Shown: piece after piece, positions 9,676 to 32,044 of the stretch
Position numbering within the stretch: position 1 is the first letter of the stretch
Layout of the letters: each line of letters opens with the position of its first letter
NCBI GenBank assembly: GCA_027063065.1
Contig: JAMOSO010000047.1
Coordinates: forward strand, 1 to 32,616
DNA from: Planctomycetota bacterium
GTDB lineage: Bacteria; Planctomycetota; JAMOSO01
DNA: 32,616 nt
Direction: 5' to 3'
Notes under the pieces: model-generated
What the model saw: the letters and a program-made list of their open reading frames with translations, nothing else
What the model was told of the DNA's origin: nothing
Database searches by the model: none
Program-made: the position numbers and the translations under genes

Positions 9676-10332
9676 TTAATTAAACAAACTAGCTTGTTTA
9701 ATATCTACTGGATATTCATCTAAATAACTAGACAATGTTTGTGTATTCCAAATTTCTAACCTATCTACAAATTTTAATAATGTTACATTTTTGTTGTATT
9801 TAAAATAATTTTTAGTTTGAAATTTATTTAATAAAATAGCTTTGTTTTTTGCTACTTCTACTTCTTCAAAACCCAACTCACTTTCATAAGCACTACGAGT
9901 AACAGATGCCAAACTTTGCCACTGATTATAAGTAAAAACCCCAATACATTCCTTTAAAGGAACTAAACGCAAAACAGAACCAGCTCTAACGCCTGATAAT
10001 ACTACGAAACCAAAATCGTCAACCGCAGTTATATCTGCCTTGTTAATCGCCTCACTACGTTGATTATATAATATTTTTCTTAAACTAATTTGATTTGAAC
10101 TGCTGTCAAAATGTAAATAAATATTTGCAATCAAAAACAAAACAGCAGCATGCGCAAATACCGCAAAAACCCAAGGTCTATACTTTTGCCACAAGGTCGA
10201 TGACGTACGCTTTGCACCTAAATCATAAATACGTTTTTTCACCTTAGATTTAAACATTGATGATGTTTTTACGCTGGGTAATTGTGCCATTTTAGATATA
10301 ATTTGCCTATCTTCTTTATCAATCTGGTGCAT
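9676..10332 (-). CDS. Putative membrane anti-sigma factor paired with the downstream-encoded ECF sigma
   Basis: The 218 residues have a charged cytoplasmic N-terminus of about 50 residues, one TM segment near 53-74 (WVFAVFAHAAVLFLIANIYL), and an extracytoplasmic domain of about 140 residues with no motif I can name. The ATG at 10332 lies 14 nt inside the end of the preceding ECF sigma gene, a coupling typical of sigma/anti-sigma pairs. Topology and position make an anti-sigma factor the best call. There is no zinc-finger HxxxCxxC motif, unlike its neighbour at 10900, so it would be a different anti-sigma class. The domain after the TM may sense a periplasmic cue. Function is inferred from context only. 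Confidence 0.6.
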   Translation of the reverse strand: MHQIDKEDRQIISKMAQLPSVKTSSMFKSKVKKRIYDLGAKRTSSTLWQKYRPWVFAVFAHAAVLFLIANIYLHFDSSSNQISLRKILYNQRSEAINKADITAVDDFGFVVLSGVRAGSVLRLVPLKECIGVFTYNQWQSLASVTRSAYESELGFEEVEVAKNKAILLNKFQTKNYFKYNKNVTLLKFVDRLEIWNTQTLSSYLDEYPVDIKQASLFN

Positions 10333-10867
10333 GTTTTTCTCGCAATAATTCCTGCATTTTTTTTAAACCATGATGTAACCTACTTTTAACTGTTCCAACA
10401 GCAATATTTAAAGCATCGGACACCTCTTTATACGTCAAATTTTGAAAAGCTATTAATAATACAACCTCTCTATGCTTACTACTTAAAGAATCTAAGGATT
10501 GGGCAACATCTTTTTGAGCCTCGTCAAACAATAAATTTTCTGCTGGATCTACCTGATAACTATCAATTTGATATTCATCAATATCTATTTCACGTCTAGT
10601 TGCTTTGCGTCTGCAAAAATCAACCCAAAGATTATATGCGATAGAATACATATAGCCCTTACCTATTGATTGTCTAAATTTAAATTGATGACGCCGTGTA
10701 TATAATTTAACAAATAACTCCTGACATAAATCCTCAGATAATTCCAAACTCCAACAGTGTTTGTAAAAATAATTAAGCATTTCATCTGCATATAAATCCA
10801 TTAGAGAATCAAGCGCTCCATCAATATCATCACTAACACTCTGCATTAAAAGAGTAAAATCTGTCAT
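10319..10867 (-). CDS. ECF-type RNA polymerase sigma factor (second of the array)
   Basis: The 182-residue protein has the two-domain ECF layout: region 2 (residues about 20-90, with DLCQELFVKLYTRRHQF and YMYSIAYNLWVDFCRRK) and region 4 (about 120-175, with LDSLSSKHREVVLLIAFQNLTYKEVSDALNI and GTVKSRLHHGLKKM). It would direct RNA polymerase to a small regulon when released from its anti-sigma factor. The partner is probably the overlapping gene at 9676-10332. The upstream anti-sigma gene ends 32 bp before its start, so all four regulators are likely co-transcribed. Its DNA target cannot be read from this sequence. Confidence 0.9.
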   Translation of the reverse strand: MTDFTLLMQSVSDDIDGALDSLMDLYADEMLNYFYKHCWSLELSEDLCQELFVKLYTRRHQFKFRQSIGKGYMYSIAYNLWVDFCRRKATRREIDIDEYQIDSYQVDPAENLLFDEAQKDVAQSLDSLSSKHREVVLLIAFQNLTYKEVSDALNIAVGTVKSRLHHGLKKMQELLREKHAPD

Positions 10868-10899: not shown

Positions 10900-11433
10900 T
10901 CAAAGAATATCTAAATATCGATCTAAATCCTGACTAAACAATTCTGTGTCAATAATAGCAAAGTCATATTCCGCCCGCTTAAAAATATCATCAATAATTT
11001 GATCGTTAGCTACACTTTCAACAATAGCTAATTCATTATCATAATTCTTTAACAAATCAACTTCATCAATTGCAAAATTAGTATCTGCAAAATCGAGTCT
11101 CACATCATTCTCTGAAGGTAAACTAAACAAAGTCAAACTCGCCATAATCAACACAGAAGCTACCAAAGTACGCCAATGATTTATAAAATTAAATTTAATT
11201 ACTTTTGTTGGGCAATTTTTTGTTGCCTCTGCCAAAATAGCCTCACTTATGTTATTATCAGGTATTTTAGCATTTACAATTAACTCTTTATCTATACGCA
11301 CATAACTCTGTTTTAACTCAAATAAAGATTGTGCACATTTTGTGCAAGAGTTTAAATGCTGTTTCATTTCCTCTGTTAAATCAATATCATCATAAGCTAA
11401 CAGTAAAATAGTATCACTTGTTAAACAATTCAT
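10900..11433 (-). CDS. Zinc-finger anti-sigma factor (ZAS type), single-pass
   Basis: The 177-residue protein has an N-terminal anti-sigma zinc-binding motif, HLNSCTKC (H25-x3-C29-x2-C32). An amphipathic segment and one TM stretch follow near 88-104 (TLVASVLIMASLTLFSL), then a short acidic extracytoplasmic tail with no recognised domain. ZAS proteins hold an ECF sigma factor inactive at the membrane. Its ATG overlaps the TGA of the ECF gene at 11430 in an ATGA junction, marking that sigma factor as its partner. The tail has many Asp and Glu residues and few Cys, so thiol sensing would have to occur at the zinc site. Confidence 0.85.
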   Translation of the reverse strand: MNCLTSDTILLLAYDDIDLTEEMKQHLNSCTKCAQSLFELKQSYVRIDKELIVNAKIPDNNISEAILAEATKNCPTKVIKFNFINHWRTLVASVLIMASLTLFSLPSENDVRLDFADTNFAIDEVDLLKNYDNELAIVESVANDQIIDDIFKRAEYDFAIIDTELFSQDLDRYLDIL

Positions 11434-11960
11434 AAGATTTTCTCCCGCAAATATTCCAAGCCTCTGTGTACACGTGACAATACAGTACCTATTGGCGTCG
11501 AAGTTGTTTCCGCTATTTCTTTAAAGCTTAAACCACTAAAATGACGCATCATTAATAACTCTCTTAACTGCACCGGTAATGCATTAATAGCATTATGTAA
11601 AATTTGTTTTTTTTCATTAGATTCAGCAATTGTTTCAGGATTGTTTTTTAAATCGCCGTATTCCCAACCATCTGATATTGCCACGTCTAAATTTGCTTTT
11701 AAACGCCCTTTATCAATTAGTTTATTTCTGGCTATAGTATAAATCCACGCTTTAAAATTTTGTGTTTCACAATATTTAGGCATTTTTTTTATTACCTGTA
11801 AAAAAACTTCCTGAAAAATATCCTCTGCCACAGCCGTAGACAAACAAGATCTATACAAATAGTTAAATAAAGGCATCTGATAACGCCGATATAAGGTTTC
11901 AAAAGCTCCTTTATCGCCATCTAAATATTTACGTACTAATAAAGCATCGTCATCAACCAT
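11430..11960 (-). CDS. ECF-type RNA polymerase sigma factor (first of the array)
   Basis: The 176 residues comprise sigma region 2 (FETLYRRYQMPLFNYLYRSC, AEDIFQEVFLQVIKKMPKY, FKAWIYTIARNKLIDKGR) and region 4 (LPVQLRELLMMRHFSGLSFKEIAETT, PIGTVLSRVHRGLEYL). This is the RpoE-like ECF layout. It heads a long minus-strand block. TATAAT at 11972-11967 lies 6 nt from the ATG, so its mRNA may be leaderless. The next gene is its zinc-finger anti-sigma factor, joined by an ATGA overlap. It differs in sequence from the ECF factor at 10319, so the array is not a simple tandem duplication. Divergent pgsA starts 85 bp away. Confidence 0.92.
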   Translation of the reverse strand: MVDDDALLVRKYLDGDKGAFETLYRRYQMPLFNYLYRSCLSTAVAEDIFQEVFLQVIKKMPKYCETQNFKAWIYTIARNKLIDKGRLKANLDVAISDGWEYGDLKNNPETIAESNEKKQILHNAINALPVQLRELLMMRHFSGLSFKEIAETTSTPIGTVLSRVHRGLEYLREKIL

Positions 11961-17010: not shown

Positions 17011-17823
17011 ATGGCAATTGATTATAATAACCGACAAGATTTACAAAGCTACTTAGAAGGTATTCAGCAATATAAGCTACTTAGTGCAGAAGAAGAAGTT
17101 GATTTGGCTCGTAAAGTACAACAAGGTGATGAAGCCTCAAGAGATAAAATGGTTTTAGCTAATTTAAGACTAGTTATTGCTATAGCGTCAAATTACCATA
17201 CACGCGGATTGGTCATATCCGATTTAATTGAAGAAGGCAACCTTGGTTTATTAAAAGCTGTCAAAATGTTTAATCCAGAGCTTGGCTTTAGATTTTCTAC
17301 CTATGCCTCTTGGTGGATAAAATTATATATAAAACGTGCCATCACTAATAATTCTCAAACAGTAAAAATTCCTTCGTATATGATTGAAGATATATATAAA
17401 TGGATGAAAACTCGCAATCGTCTACGTGATGAAACTGACAATAATCCATCACTAGAAGATATTGCTGAAGCAATGAATGTTAACAAAAAGAAGGCTACCT
17501 CTATCGTTAAAGCTATGAAATTAATGGAAAATTATAATATTAACGAAAATGCTGATATGATTTTACAAGTAGCCTCTAAAGATAATAGTGAAGATTCTAT
17601 TTTTGGAAATTTTGATAAAAATATTATTAGGCGAATTGTTGACGAGCTAGATGAACGTGATCGTTTTATAATTATCAGACGTTTTGGTTTAGATGGTGAA
17701 GGCAGTCAAACCCTAGATGAAATTGGCAAAGACTTAAACTTAACCAGGGAACGTGTGCGCCAATTGGAAGCTAAGGTAGTATCTAAATTAAGTCAACTTT
17801 TCAAGCGAGAATCCAACCTGTAA
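17011..17823 (+). CDS. Sigma-70 family factor, RpoD-like with regions 1.2 to 4
   Basis: The 270-residue factor contains region 1.2 (LQSYLEGIQQYKLLSAEEE), a full region 2 including NLRLVIAIASNYHTRGL, LIEEGNLGLLKAV and the -10 recognition helix FRFSTYASWWIKLYIKRAI, region 3, and region 4 ending in a helix-turn-helix (TLDEIGKDLNLTRERVRQLEAK). It lacks the long N-terminal region 1.1 and the non-conserved domain of a large RpoD, so it is either a compact primary-like factor or a group 2/3 alternative. It is the third sigma factor in the window and the only non-ECF one. No clear Shine-Dalgarno sequence precedes the ATG. Its last 31 bp overlap the convergent dprA end. Confidence 0.9.
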   Translation: MAIDYNNRQDLQSYLEGIQQYKLLSAEEEVDLARKVQQGDEASRDKMVLANLRLVIAIASNYHTRGLVISDLIEEGNLGLLKAVKMFNPELGFRFSTYASWWIKLYIKRAITNNSQTVKIPSYMIEDIYKWMKTRNRLRDETDNNPSLEDIAEAMNVNKKKATSIVKAMKLMENYNINENADMILQVASKDNSEDSIFGNFDKNIIRRIVDELDERDRFIIIRRFGLDGEGSQTLDEIGKDLNLTRERVRQLEAKVVSKLSQLFKRESNL

Positions 17824-27932: not shown

Positions 27933-29333
27933 TTACTCAGCTATAAAATCACCATTCAACAGTATCTTGTGGGAGCGTACACCATAAAGCACAGGATATA
28001 GTTTACTCGTACTTAACATAATTTCTTGTCCATGCTCTGCTTCAGATGCCGCTGGCCTTGGTTTAAAATAAATATAAGGTTCGTGAGTTATTGGACATAA
28101 AATTTCCTGTGCATTTTTTATATAGCCTAAAGTTACTAAACTTTTTAAGTTTTCTGGCCATAAGCCAGTATCAACCCTAAAAAGTAATATCGCAGCACGC
28201 AATAATTTCATTCGTAATTTTGCTTTATCTAAACCAGAACTCACTATATCAGAATTTTGTTGACCCTCCAGTAATGAAGCAACCACTTTTTCATCCCATT
28301 GAGTTGGCAATGTTCGTCCATCAATCAACGCGTACTGCTCCTTTGCCCAAGACACAATCGATTGCGGAGCCCCTGGTATTTGTTTAACTGCTTTTAACCA
28401 ATACTTTGCCCTTGCACCTTCATCGTTACGGCGTAATAATTCGCCAGTTAAATATGTTAATAAAGCAACTTCGTTTTCGCGTACCTTTTTAGAAAACAAT
28501 GCATCCATAAAGAATTTAATCGCTTTGCCCCTATATGTTTGAGCTGTTTTTAACAATCTTTGATGATATTGAATTAAATTTTTAATTTGAGGTTCCCACG
28601 CCATGCTTTCAGCGGCAGCTAAATATCTTCTAGTTGTACGCCCATCACCTATACGATCACTCAGCCCAGCCAATACAACATAAATGCAATACTTTACTCT
28701 TGAACTACTCTTTGCCAATGCCTGACGATAAACACCTAACCATTCTTGCGGACCCTTAATTGTGCGCTTGCCAACAATCTTACTGACAATACTATTCATA
28801 CGCACCATATACTCATTGGTAATAGCTGATACTGGTGGATTTAATAACAATTGACGACAATACCAAGAAGCCTCTAAAGCCAACTTAGCACGAACAACCT
28901 TATCTAGGTTCAAAATCTCATAAGTTTTTTCTGCATTTTGAAATTTTAATAACCCAGGTATATCATCTTGTACTAATTTAACATTTAATGCTTTATAACG
29001 TTTTTTTAAGCTAGATAAACGCTTTGCAGTAATAGCGCCCAATTCTTGTTTTATTTTAAGTTTTGCCGCTTCACTAACAGGAGACTCAAACCTTTGTGTA
29101 TATACTGCATAACCACATTCAGGACACAACGTGATGCTTTTTCCGTAATGATCGGCCCCAGAGTATATTCTAAATAAATCACGATCCTGCTCTTTAGATG
29201 GTGGTTGTTGATAAACCAAACCTGTTACATGGGTGCCGTCAACAGGACAAATCATATCAAACTCTTTAAAACTTAACTGTGCCATAACTGTACTTGATAT
29301 AACAAGCATCAAAATTAAATTTATATATCGCAT
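27933..29333 (-). CDS. Exported DUF2225-like protein with helical repeats and prepilin-like C-terminus
   Basis: The 466 residues begin with a signal peptide (LILMLVISSTVMA, then QLSF). A Cys-containing module with ICPVDGTHV and LCPECGYAVY follows, resembling the zinc-ribbon-like start of DUF2225 proteins. A long helical region (about 150-330) may be TPR-like. The last 100 residues contain LLRAAILLFRVDTGLWPENLKSL, CPITHEPYIYF and a final KILLNGDF. That is the layout of the C-terminal part of type II secretion pseudopilins, but without the N-terminal prepilin helix. I know no function for this combination. Its ATG overlaps the LpxH stop (TAATG). Confidence 0.65.
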   Translation of the reverse strand: MRYINLILMLVISSTVMAQLSFKEFDMICPVDGTHVTGLVYQQPPSKEQDRDLFRIYSGADHYGKSITLCPECGYAVYTQRFESPVSEAAKLKIKQELGAITAKRLSSLKKRYKALNVKLVQDDIPGLLKFQNAEKTYEILNLDKVVRAKLALEASWYCRQLLLNPPVSAITNEYMVRMNSIVSKIVGKRTIKGPQEWLGVYRQALAKSSSRVKYCIYVVLAGLSDRIGDGRTTRRYLAAAESMAWEPQIKNLIQYHQRLLKTAQTYRGKAIKFFMDALFSKKVRENEVALLTYLTGELLRRNDEGARAKYWLKAVKQIPGAPQSIVSWAKEQYALIDGRTLPTQWDEKVVASLLEGQQNSDIVSSGLDKAKLRMKLLRAAILLFRVDTGLWPENLKSLVTLGYIKNAQEILCPITHEPYIYFKPRPAASEAEHGQEIMLSTSKLYPVLYGVRSHKILLNGDFIAE

Positions 29334-30067
29334 TATTTCTCCATTAAGTTATGTACAATTAAACTATCATTATCTAATAACTCAGCATATTCTGGTGCGT
29401 CAACGTACCAAGCAGGAATTACACTAAAACGCTTATCACAACCATCTATCTTTTTAATAAAATCTTGATAATCATGTAAATGACCACATATTATACCATC
29501 ATAACCATTTAAACATTCATAATTTTTCATCACATCATATAAAGTGCGTTCTCGTAATTTACCACGCTTCGTAACACCACGACTTAACTTAATAATTAAA
29601 GCAATCATCCAATCCACCACTAACGGTGGTAGCAAACTCCAAAAACACATTGTGATTTTACGACGCATAACAAAACACCATAAATGATAAGTAAAATCAT
29701 TACCCATTTGTAAATCACCATGCTCTAATCTATATAGTTTATTATTATGACGTAAATCGTATTGAGTGTATATTTTCATACCAGTGATTTTTTGTAATGT
29801 ATCACCAACTGTAAAATCATGATTGCCAACAATAAAATTAACTTTCCAACCAGTATTAGTTAAACGTCTAAGACTCTCTAACACCGAAAAATATGAGCTC
29901 ATAATAAAATTTTTATATTCAAACCAAAAATCAAAAAAATCGCCCATAATAAATAATTGTCCAGCATCTTCATTTAAAAGCTCTGTAACAAATCTATTAA
30001 AAATTTTAAAAGTTCTCTCATCACCTGGAGTTAGGTGCGCATCTGCTATAAATAAAACTCTACCCAT
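29333..30067 (-). CDS. lpxH: UDP-2,3-diacylglucosamine diphosphatase (LpxH-like)
   Basis: Peripheral membrane metallophosphatase that splits UDP-diacylglucosamine to lipid X in lipid A synthesis. The 244 residues carry the full two-metal set: D9-x-H11, G42-D43-x-x-D46 (MGDFFDFWFE), G81-N82-H83-D84, H116-G-D118 and G195-H196-L-H198. FDFWF after the second Asp is typical of LpxH-type enzymes rather than general phosphoesterases. Its presence implies an LPS-bearing outer membrane. It is coupled to both neighbours by TAATG overlaps at 30067 and 29333. Confidence 0.88.
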   Translation of the reverse strand: MGRVLFIADAHLTPGDERTFKIFNRFVTELLNEDAGQLFIMGDFFDFWFEYKNFIMSSYFSVLESLRRLTNTGWKVNFIVGNHDFTVGDTLQKITGMKIYTQYDLRHNNKLYRLEHGDLQMGNDFTYHLWCFVMRRKITMCFWSLLPPLVVDWMIALIIKLSRGVTKRGKLRERTLYDVMKNYECLNGYDGIICGHLHDYQDFIKKIDGCDKRFSVIPAWYVDAPEYAELLDNDSLIVHNLMEK

Positions 30068-30873
30068 TATTTATTTTTAGAAATTATATGATATAAGCTT
30101 GCCGATACTGCACAGGCAACATTTAAAGAATTTTTGCGACCGTACATAGGTATACTTAAACACGCATCACATTTACTTAATACCTCATGTGATAAACCTA
30201 ACTGTTCATTACCTGCCACCAATGCAATTGGCATTGGTAAATCAGCCTGGAATAAATCCAAAGATGGTTCAGCTGTCTCTAAAGCTAATACTTTTATATT
30301 ACGTTTTTGTAAATCATCTATAGCCTCCAATGCTGTTGCCCAACTACGCCACTGTACAGTTTCCGTACTACCCAAAGCTGTTTTCTCTAGTTTGGCATTA
30401 CCAGGCTGTGGAGTATATCCACATAGATGGATTTCGCTAACGCCAGTTGCATCGGCTGTCCTAAAAATACCACCAACATTAAATGCACTGCGAATATTAT
30501 CTAAAATCATATACATTTCAAATTTAGTTTGCTTGGTTTTTGGCACATCAGTTGTACGAATATTAAAATCTTTTTCAGATAATTCTAAACCTGCTTCAAC
30601 CGATAATGCATCAACTAAACGCAACCAAATATCTTGAGCATTAATCATAGGTACATCTTTGCCTAGAGCATCTAAGGCTCGTTGAATTAATACAACGCCA
30701 CCTAAACGATTAGAATATTCTTTTAATGTGGATGTTTCATTATGTAAACTCAAAACTAAATTAGGTGATTGACATAATTTTTCTATTTTTGCCAAAGCTG
30801 ACTTAGCCGATTTTAACATTTCTTTAAATTGTTGTTGCCTATTTAAACGGGCAAAGCGTTGTGCGGATAACAC
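30067..30873 (-). CDS. TrmH/SpoU-family RNA 2'-O-methyltransferase
   Basis: A SAM-dependent enzyme that methylates the ribose of tRNA or rRNA. The 268 residues have an N-terminal helical substrate-binding part and the knotted SPOUT domain from about 120: ILDNIRSAFNVGGIFRTADA (motif 1), ALVAGNEQLGLS (motif 2) and IPMYGRKNSLNVACAVSASLY (motif 3). The GTG start at 30873 is supported by GAGG 8 nt upstream, placed at the end of the STAS gene. The precise RNA target (tRNA Gm18 or another) cannot be told. It lies between the STAS protein and lpxH. Confidence 0.88.
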   Translation of the reverse strand: MLSAQRFARLNRQQQFKEMLKSAKSALAKIEKLCQSPNLVLSLHNETSTLKEYSNRLGGVVLIQRALDALGKDVPMINAQDIWLRLVDALSVEAGLELSEKDFNIRTTDVPKTKQTKFEMYMILDNIRSAFNVGGIFRTADATGVSEIHLCGYTPQPGNAKLEKTALGSTETVQWRSWATALEAIDDLQKRNIKVLALETAEPSLDLFQADLPMPIALVAGNEQLGLSHEVLSKCDACLSIPMYGRKNSLNVACAVSASLYHIISKNK

Positions 30874-30876
30874 TAA

Positions 30877-31173
30877 TCAGTCCTCTATATTTAAAAGCTC
30901 GTAACCTCCGAGACACTTAAAAACCATAGAAACCTTTTGACATAAATTAATTAGCTTGAGAGTAGCACCCTTACTTGCCAACACCTGTGAAATATTAACC
31001 GTATAACCAAACGCACTGGAATTAACATACATAGTGTTTTCAAAATCAAAAGTTAATGATTTGATTTGTTCTTCTTCTATTAAATAATCTAAAGCACTCC
31101 AATTTTCTGTAGAGTCAAATTCTACACCTATATTCACAAGATATTCACCTGTGGAAACCTCGATAATTTTCAT
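30877..31173 (-). CDS. STAS-domain protein (anti-anti-sigma-like)
   Basis: The 98 residues match a single STAS fold: an N-terminal beta region, then TFDFENTMYVNSSAFGYTV, LASKGATLKLINL and a C-terminal VSMVFKCLGGYELL. The usual DSSG phosphorylation loop reads NSSAFG, with Ser52/Ser53 available but Asp replaced by Asn. It starts 1 nt after the stop of the HATPase protein at 31175, so the two likely form a partner-switching pair, in which the kinase-like protein binds or phosphorylates the STAS protein. No PP2C phosphatase or cognate sigma gene is adjacent. Confidence 0.8.
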   Translation of the reverse strand: MKIIEVSTGEYLVNIGVEFDSTENWSALDYLIEEEQIKSLTFDFENTMYVNSSAFGYTVNISQVLASKGATLKLINLCQKVSMVFKCLGGYELLNIED

Positions 31174-31174
31174 A

Positions 31175-32044
31175 TTAATCTTGATCCTTACATTTATAAA
31201 AACTAACCACTGTACTTTTAGCTTTTAGCGTCTCAATAGCCCAACCATCCATAAAAGAATCAACTATTGCCATTCCAGATTTTTGTCCAGGGTTCTTTTC
31301 TATATTGCGCATAATATCCTTACGACTAATATTACAACCGCCCTCATCTTTAATACGCACAAAAAATGTTGAGCCATCAACTATAAAACTAACTCTAATA
31401 CGACTTTGACAATATCTAGGTGAACCATGCTTAAACGCATTAGTATAAACTTCATCAGTGGCTAACTTGATTTGAAATGCACTCAACGAATCAAACCCTG
31501 CCAAAGTAGCTAATTCCTCAGCCATATCACGAATATATTTAACATAAAAATGGCGAGCTGGAAATGTCAAAGCTATTACATCAGGATCAGATTCTTGTAA
31601 TGTTTTTAATAATTGTTTATCTTTTTCATCATCAAAAGAAACATCAGCCATTTCTTTTTCAAAGCTAGTAGAAACCTCTGATGTTGTTAAACTGTCTGTA
31701 TATTTACAACCTAAAAATAACTCATAATCACGCTCCCAAGAACGCTCACAACGAACTACAGTGCATTCACGCAATTTACCAAAGCACTGATTATTATTAT
31801 CTAAATAACTAATTGTAAATTTTTTGCCTAAAAATTTTTTAGTTAATGCATCTAAATCTAAAAAATCATTAAAAATACTGGCCTTTTCTACATTATGTGT
31901 AAAAATTTTAATAAATGCCGAAAAACCATTAGCACTTTGATCCCACATCATTCCATTATAAGACGTGTTCGCATCAGCAACAAAACACACTGGAGATGAA
32001 CGTTTAGAGCGTTCTTCACGATTTATAAAATCTTTAGCTGTCAT
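31175..32044 (-). CDS. PilZ-like domain fused to RsbW-type HATPase
   Basis: The 289 residues consist of two modules. Residues about 8-115 look PilZ-like: basic start NREERSKR, WDQSANGFSAFI with D35-x-S37-x-x-G40, and LFLGCKYTD at the end. The strict RxxxR of c-di-GMP-binding PilZ is not present (spacing is RxxR), so ligand binding is uncertain. Residues about 155-285 are a HATPase_c_2 domain as in RsbW/SpoIIAB: N-box LATDEVYTNAFKHGSP (E197, N201, H205), VRIKDEGG and SGMAIVDSFMDGW. Such proteins act as anti-sigma factors or serine kinases on STAS partners, and a STAS gene follows after 1 nt. No clear Shine-Dalgarno sequence precedes the ATG. Divergent trkH lies 110 bp away. Confidence 0.78.
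   Translation of the reverse strand: MTAKDFINREERSKRSSPVCFVADANTSYNGMMWDQSANGFSAFIKIFTHNVEKASIFNDFLDLDALTKKFLGKKFTISYLDNNNQCFGKLRECTVVRCERSWERDYELFLGCKYTDSLTTSEVSTSFEKEMADVSFDDEKDKQLLKTLQESDPDVIALTFPARHFYVKYIRDMAEELATLAGFDSLSAFQIKLATDEVYTNAFKHGSPRYCQSRIRVSFIVDGSTFFVRIKDEGGCNISRKDIMRNIEKNPGQKSGMAIVDSFMDGWAIETLKAKSTVVSFYKCKDQD

Follow-up and report, generated by a model that had tools for sequence, protein, structure and literature searches.

The gene pair and its features

The window, the whole 32,616-nucleotide stretch of planctomycete DNA that was analysed, carries on its minus strand a pair of genes for a switch kinase of the RsbW/SpoIIAB type, fused at its N-terminus to a PilZ-fold domain, and a small STAS protein. 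The features on which the analysis turns are as follows.

31175-32044, minus strand: PilZ-HATPase (RsbW/SpoIIAB-type) fused switch kinase, 289 aa, ATG start (open reading frame, HATPase_c_2 match, four aligned kinases, model)
31694-32020, minus strand: N-terminal PilZ-fold domain, residues about 9-117 (six-strand barrel model, structure matches, orthologues)
32009-32020, minus strand: R9-E-E-R12, an RxxR at the site of the RxxxR of c-di-GMP-binding PilZ domains (R9 and R12 in all five members)
31925-31942, minus strand: D35QSANG40, the second PilZ motif (D/N)xSxxG, intact in the window (alignment of five members)
31181-31588, minus strand: HATPase_c_2 (GHKL) kinase domain, residues about 153-288 (Pfam, structure match, profile)
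31427-31453, minus strand: N-box E198-VYT-N202-AFK-H206 (E198 and N202 align with RsbW E49 and N53)
30877-31173, minus strand: STAS antagonist, 98 aa, ATG start (open reading frame, TIGR02886 at E 1.2e-5, model)
31006-31023, minus strand: acceptor loop N51-S52-S53-A54-F55-G56 (Ser52 aligns with RsbV Ser56)
27933-30873, minus strand: downstream genes for a SpoU-type RNA methyltransferase, an LpxH-like phosphoesterase and a DUF2225 protein, overlapping or separated by no more than 3 nt

The STAS gene comes after the kinase gene, from which a single nucleotide (31174) separates it. The initial annotation had described an RsbW-type kinase and a PilZ-like domain in one protein, encoded 1 nt before a STAS gene; the two reading frames bear out the spacing, and the fusion is upheld by the HATPase_c_2 match and by the PilZ fold of the model and of orthologues. 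The open frame of the kinase comprises 290 aa and opens only one codon upstream of the ATG, and therefore conceals no upstream N-terminal RxxxR. The methyltransferase, phosphoesterase and DUF2225 genes probably form an operon with the pair; they lie outside the conserved module, and the pairs of relatives have different neighbours. Upstream of the kinase gene is a TrkH-type transporter gene that points away from it.

Recurrence of the module

A search of 59 genomes, that of the window and relatives, yielded three full-length kinase homologues, in genomes G036, G005 and G004 (34, 33 and 21% identity, respectively). A profile built from the four kinases matches 49 of the 392 phylum genomes scanned at E <= 1e-8. 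Four of the matches, the window's included, are full-length, with E below 1e-130; the remaining matched places listed cover the ATPase part alone, the earliest starting at profile position 118. The kinase of a further genome, G035, is split by contig ends into an N-terminal part (L075) and a C-terminal part that is accompanied by the STAS gene (L074), and owing to this split G035 does not count as a match in the per-class tally.

A PilZ-kinase gene with a directly following STAS gene is thus present in five of the 392 sampled genomes, one copy being split over contig ends, and these five span three lineages. The module occurs in all four sampled genomes of two other small classes (G004 and G035; G005 and G036), and the nearest sampled relatives of the window genome share only the phylum with it. 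The 1-nt gap between the genes in the window is replaced by overlaps in the other four genomes. Because fusion and adjacent STAS gene recur together in five genomes, with kinases only 21-33% identical to that of the window in the three that could be aligned whole, their association goes beyond chance. A scan of 84,980 species with two short patterns, a search of low sensitivity, returned four loci: those of G005, G036 and G004, and a lone HATPase (L044).

The kinase domain

The HATPase_c_2 match on the window kinase spans residues 161-282 (E 4.1e-12; 46.7 bits against a curated cut-off of 27.4). In a comparison of the kinase profile with solved structures the top hits are SpoIIAB (1til_A, E 1.8e-11) and RsbW (2.1e-7). 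The predicted structure aligns with SpoIIAB (1l0o_A) at Z 15.3 over 134 residues (rmsd 3.4) and with RsbW (6m37_C) at the same Z over 113 residues (rmsd 2.1). The protein remains below the SpoIIAB and RsbW equivalog level, scoring 27.7 bits against 135 for TIGR01925 and 26.4 against 145 for NF003144. Confidence in the model as a whole is moderate (mean pLDDT 67.3), and residues 1-15, 49-61 and 118-152 fall below 50; the arginines of the first PilZ motif are therefore unplaced in the model and are aligned by sequence only.

In the RsbV-RsbW crystal structure, RsbW residues R23, D42, K44/S48, E49 and Y118 are reported to touch RsbV residues D23, R84/R87, Y53, S56 and I91 (PMC7340262). R172, K193, E198 and N202 of the window kinase correspond to RsbW R23, K44, E49 and N53 and are identical in all four aligned kinases; RsbW D42 is not retained, and the position of RsbW S48 is occupied by Asp in each of the four. 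In SpoIIAB, Glu46 is described as the catalytic base, Asn50 as a magnesium ligand and Arg105 as steadying the transition state (PMC10345196). Glu46 and Asn50 align with the same two positions, E198 and N202, both of which are kept in the four kinases; at the position of Arg105, read by eye, the window kinase has Lys, three relatives have Arg and G035 has Leu. HATPase residues incompatible with ATP binding had been named at the outset as grounds for abandoning the initial reading. With the equivalents of the catalytic Glu and the magnesium-binding Asn retained, the window HATPase appears, by its residues, to be consistent with both ATP binding and catalysis.

The STAS protein and its predicted acceptor loop

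Pfam STAS is below threshold for the window protein (18.7 against 22.6 bits, E 0.0015) and matches all four scanned family members (E up to 10, best 5.8e-10). Among NCBIfam models the closest is SpoIIAA, TIGR02886, at E 1.2e-5 but under the equivalog cut-off. The predicted structure is a confident STAS fold (mean pLDDT 90.7), the closest solved structure being SpoIIAA (1thn_B; Z 14.5, 97 residues aligned, rmsd 1.8), and a STAS profile compared with solved structures places TM1442, RsbV and SpoIIAA within the first four. The kinase and STAS halves of the module belong to the RsbW/RsbV kind without being SpoIIAB or RsbW equivalogs.

In the STAS model a helix runs through residues 52-67, with Ser52, the equivalent of the phosphorylated acceptor, at its start. 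Y49 and S52 correspond to RsbV Y53 and the phosphorylated S56, and both are kept in the four aligned STAS proteins and in the fifth member. Identity in these five extends to N51 and F55 (the fifth, from G035, reads YINSCGFG), and the five loops are NSSAFG in the window and NSSGFG, NSCGFS, NSSGFG and NSCGFG in the others. In RsbV the residue that pairs with RsbW R23 is D23, and only two of the four aligned proteins have Asp at this position.

The loop had first been singled out as altered, NSSAFG in place of DSSG. It does read NSSAFG, but the weight placed on the alteration does not stand, Asn being present in all five members and in three of four single-chain relatives. These relatives, STAS-HATPase proteins of the phylum, read MNSTGFG, MSSTGFG, MNSTGFG and ANSSGFG; the comparison took in ten loci, five of them without a frame that fitted the search pattern and one, L044, without a STAS domain. 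At the Asp position of the eight STAS matches elsewhere in the window genome, read by eye, D is found in four, S in three and N in one. The four with D are three SulP-type transporters and one other protein (L038). Asp is absent from three of the four other free-standing STAS proteins of this genome, and three of those four have V, S or I at the Gly position. The idea of an altered phosphorylation loop as a novelty was rejected in view of the family-wide Asn together with the Asp-less STAS proteins of the same genome: Asn for Asp is common to the family and frequent in planctomycete relatives, and what sets the window protein apart is only the replacement of Gly by Ala.

In four single chains from other genomes of the phylum (L049, L050, L051 and L070), as judged by eye, a STAS domain at the N-terminus and an RsbW-like ATPase domain at the C-terminus flank a cysteine-rich stretch that resembles a zinc ribbon, so that each chain holds antagonist and kinase within one polypeptide.

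The PilZ domain

The model of the window kinase has six strands within residues 18-115. Its matches to PilZ structures include c-di-GMP-bound PA0012 (8u0i; Z 9.0, 75 residues aligned, rmsd 2.7), c-di-GMP-bound VCA0042 (2rde_A; Z 8.9, 91 aligned, rmsd 3.4) and the PilZ domain of BcsA (9b8v; Z 8.6), Z values that lie only slightly above those of models without a clear match. The three matches fall on residues 12-127 of the window protein (VIA-align) and belong to one family, in agreement with the Pfam PilZ matches in orthologues. The PF07238 cut-off of 22.5 bits is passed by two of the five members, at 32.3 and 28.8 bits (1.3e-7 and 1.6e-6), the G036 orthologue having the best score; the Pfam PilZ search gave no match in the window kinase or in the G004 and G035 members. 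When the five N-terminal domains were aligned with seven PilZ domains from the window genome (hhalign), the probability was 21.7 and E 0.00099 over 36 columns, and in a profile search of the PDB the first PilZ chain, cellulose synthase 4i86, came fourth at E 0.6, after unrelated chains. The assignment is made because two orthologues exceed the Pfam cut-off and because of the fold, sequence-only evidence for the window protein being weak. An N-terminal domain that folds otherwise than as PilZ would have spoken against the initial annotation; modelled against PilZ structures, the domain matches PilZ folds.

The exact RxxxR of c-di-GMP binders is missing, as had been remarked at the outset: the window reads R9xxR12xxR15, with N8-R9-E-E-R12 at the place of the motif. 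At position 8, where RxxxR has its first Arg, the window, G036, G005, G004 and G035 show N, Q, L, R and R; at position 40, which holds the Gly in DxSxxG, they show G, G, G, S and S in the same order. Only the members from G004 and G035 accordingly have RxxxR, and these two have lost the Gly that the other three keep. Each of the five members has one canonical c-di-GMP motif and an incomplete version of the other, none having both intact. At identities to the window domain of only 16-30%, the residues invariant in all five, besides the start Met, are R9, R12, V19, G31, D35, F44, R98, E100, S102 and W103; position 37 is S or T throughout.

Judged by its motifs, the PilZ domain of the window kinase fails the canonical c-di-GMP receptor test. 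PilZ domains that lack the motifs are reported to be able to forgo c-di-GMP binding and serve as scaffolds (PMC10333796), and the motifs are described as an imperfect guide to binding in either direction (PMC8316039, PMC4624772).

Genome setting and candidate partners

The window genome (2.13 Mb in 71 contigs, 90% complete) encodes eight GGDEF domains, seven Pfam-level PilZ matches besides the window kinase, four other HATPase_c_2 matches (one under the cut-off) and the eight other STAS matches. Its six matches to sigma-70 region 2 comprise RpoD, a FliA/WhiG sigma factor (253.6 bits against a cut-off of 189.6), an RpoS-like sigma factor and three short, ECF-sized proteins; none of the three long sigma factors reaches the SigB/F/G cut-off. 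One SpoIIE-type phosphatase match was found (family searched: PF07228). The parts that an input of this kind would use, namely GGDEF proteins, other PilZ proteins, a FliA/WhiG sigma factor and a SpoIIE-type phosphatase, are therefore present in the genome.

The phosphatase match is a GAF-PP2C-HATPase protein of 584 aa (contig C48, 61637-63028; L029, L036, L082), a partner-switch phosphatase and kinase fused in one chain, whose gene adjoins a STAS gene of its own with the loop LSSAVLG. Within the window, a gene at 17011-17823 encodes a group-2 sigma factor that resembles RpoS/RpoD but lacks the long N-terminal part, a further possible target. Two short ECF-like sigma genes lie on the minus strand at 10319-10867 and 11430-11960 and are each followed by a gene for a small protein (9676-10332 and 10900-11433) which by eye shows a possible membrane segment and could be the matching anti-sigma factor.

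In the flanks read in the five genomes no phosphatase, sigma factor or GGDEF gene was seen beside the pair, and the sigma genes of the window are at least 13 kb away. No conserved neighbourhood that could point to the target was found. Downstream of the pair is lspA in G005 and G036, and in G004 and G035 a DUF349 gene lies downstream and an HTH-PilZ gene upstream; none of these adjoins the window pair.

Genes for a LacI-type helix-turn-helix fused to PilZ were found at L091 1501-2064 (in the window genome itself, contig C17, 5433-5996), L043 3285-3944 (minus strand) and L075 4376-4897 (minus strand). Both Pfam domains of the own-genome protein are over their cut-offs, and RxxxR and NxSxxG are present (RRKYSR, NISTGG). 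In G004 and G035 the HTH-PilZ gene lies beside the PilZ-kinase/STAS pair and is oriented divergently from it. Matches at E <= 1e-6, many of them partial, occur in 44 of the 392 phylum genomes, with none for G005 and G036.

Proposed mechanism and alternatives

The folds, the conserved catalytic and interface residues, the coupling of the genes and the recurrence of the module are observed, and in light of them the two genes rather probably encode a working partner switch with a PilZ signal input on the kinase. By analogy with RsbW and SpoIIAB, the kinase domain would bind the STAS protein and, with ATP, phosphorylate it at Ser52; the unphosphorylated STAS protein would hold the kinase, whereas the phosphorylated form would release it and leave the kinase free for a second partner. 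A ligand, be it c-di-GMP or another that binds more weakly or atypically, or else a protein, would act at the R9/R12/D35 face of the PilZ domain and alter how the kinase handles the STAS protein or the target. The architecture alone suggests that the PilZ domain modulates the kinase. The signal would then enter at the kinase and not at a phosphatase as in RsbU/SpoIIE systems, a placement that we infer because no phosphatase gene was seen beside the pair. For the target, the leading guesses are the FliA/WhiG-type sigma factor and one of the eight GGDEF proteins. Second-messenger coupling through the PilZ domain is plausible, and c-di-GMP is a reasonable ligand given the GGDEF proteins of the genome and the persistence of the PilZ arginines and aspartate. 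The narrower proposal, in which a cyclic dinucleotide gates a partner-switch serine kinase directly via a fused, non-canonical PilZ domain, is a tentative one and somewhat doubtful.

A strong competitor, with not quite an even chance of being right, is that the PilZ domain has degenerated into a docking module without a ligand and only localises the switch by binding a partner protein, such as the target, a diguanylate cyclase or a pilus or motor part. The failure of every member to keep both c-di-GMP motifs intact speaks for such a module, but R9, R12, D35 and S/T37, which lie at the motifs that bind c-di-GMP in canonical PilZ domains, are kept in all five at 16-30% identity, a pattern more in keeping with a binding site that has been retained than with free decay. 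The loop NSSAFG, which is not DSSGLG, could also mean that the STAS protein is not phosphorylated and that the pair works through binding alone, as a fixed antagonist. This is quite improbable: the acceptor Ser persists in five of five STAS proteins, as does the Tyr located three positions ahead of it, and the catalytic Glu equivalent persists in four of four kinases; the Asp position is Asn in three of the four single-chain relatives and commonly Ser in the same genome.

The remaining alternative concerns the output, which might be a diguanylate cyclase and not a sigma factor, with the STAS protein or the kinase controlling a GGDEF protein and c-di-GMP feeding back via the PilZ domain. SiaC-SiaD (PMC7647112) and HsbA-HsbD (PMC5085249) are cited as precedents, eight GGDEF domains are available in the genome and no sigma gene adjoins the window pair; the flanks of all five genomes, however, show no GGDEF gene beside the pair, and such an output seems unlikely. 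Among these readings, a partner switch with PilZ input on the kinase is preferred.

Relation to known systems and implications

The pair resembles SpoIIAB-SpoIIAA and RsbW-RsbV of Bacillus in its folds, catalytic Glu and Asn, interface Arg and Lys, acceptor Ser and adjacent genes, but differs from them in the N-terminal PilZ domain of the kinase, in having no sigma factor or phosphatase gene seen adjoining it and in scoring far under the equivalog cut-offs. With the c-di-GMP-binding PilZ proteins PA0012, VCA0042/PlzD and BcsA the window protein shares the barrel fold and the second motif, DxSxxG; it differs from them in having RxxR instead of RxxxR as the first motif and in the fusion of its PilZ domain with a GHKL serine-kinase domain. 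SiaABCD and HptB-HsbR-HsbA-HsbD of Pseudomonas aeruginosa likewise tie a partner switch to c-di-GMP (PMC7647112, PMC5085249). In these systems c-di-GMP synthesis is, by the same accounts, the output of the switch, whereas the window PilZ domain would be an input to the kinase. In Streptomyces, c-di-GMP acts directly on an anti-sigma factor, RsiG of sigma WhiG; it is held within the RsiG-sigma complex itself, and in the portion of the account available RsiG is not described as having a GHKL kinase, a STAS or a PilZ component (PMC13232838). A literature search of partial coverage found no PilZ-RsbW or PilZ-HATPase_c_2 fusion.

In the Rsb and SpoII switches the signal is reported to enter through the phosphatase (PMC8256260). 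A conserved sensor of the c-di-GMP type on the kinase would be a different wiring and, if the proposal of direct gating is true, would place second-messenger input at the kinase instead. The conserved R9, R12 and D35, in a family without a complete canonical motif pair, offer a test case for a PilZ ligand site that has drifted, and the proteins are small, so that binding and phosphorylation are directly testable. With an HTH-PilZ gene at the same locus in at least one class, the messenger might there be read twice, through a protein switch and through DNA binding. The PilZ-kinase itself would join second-messenger and anti-sigma control in one polypeptide.
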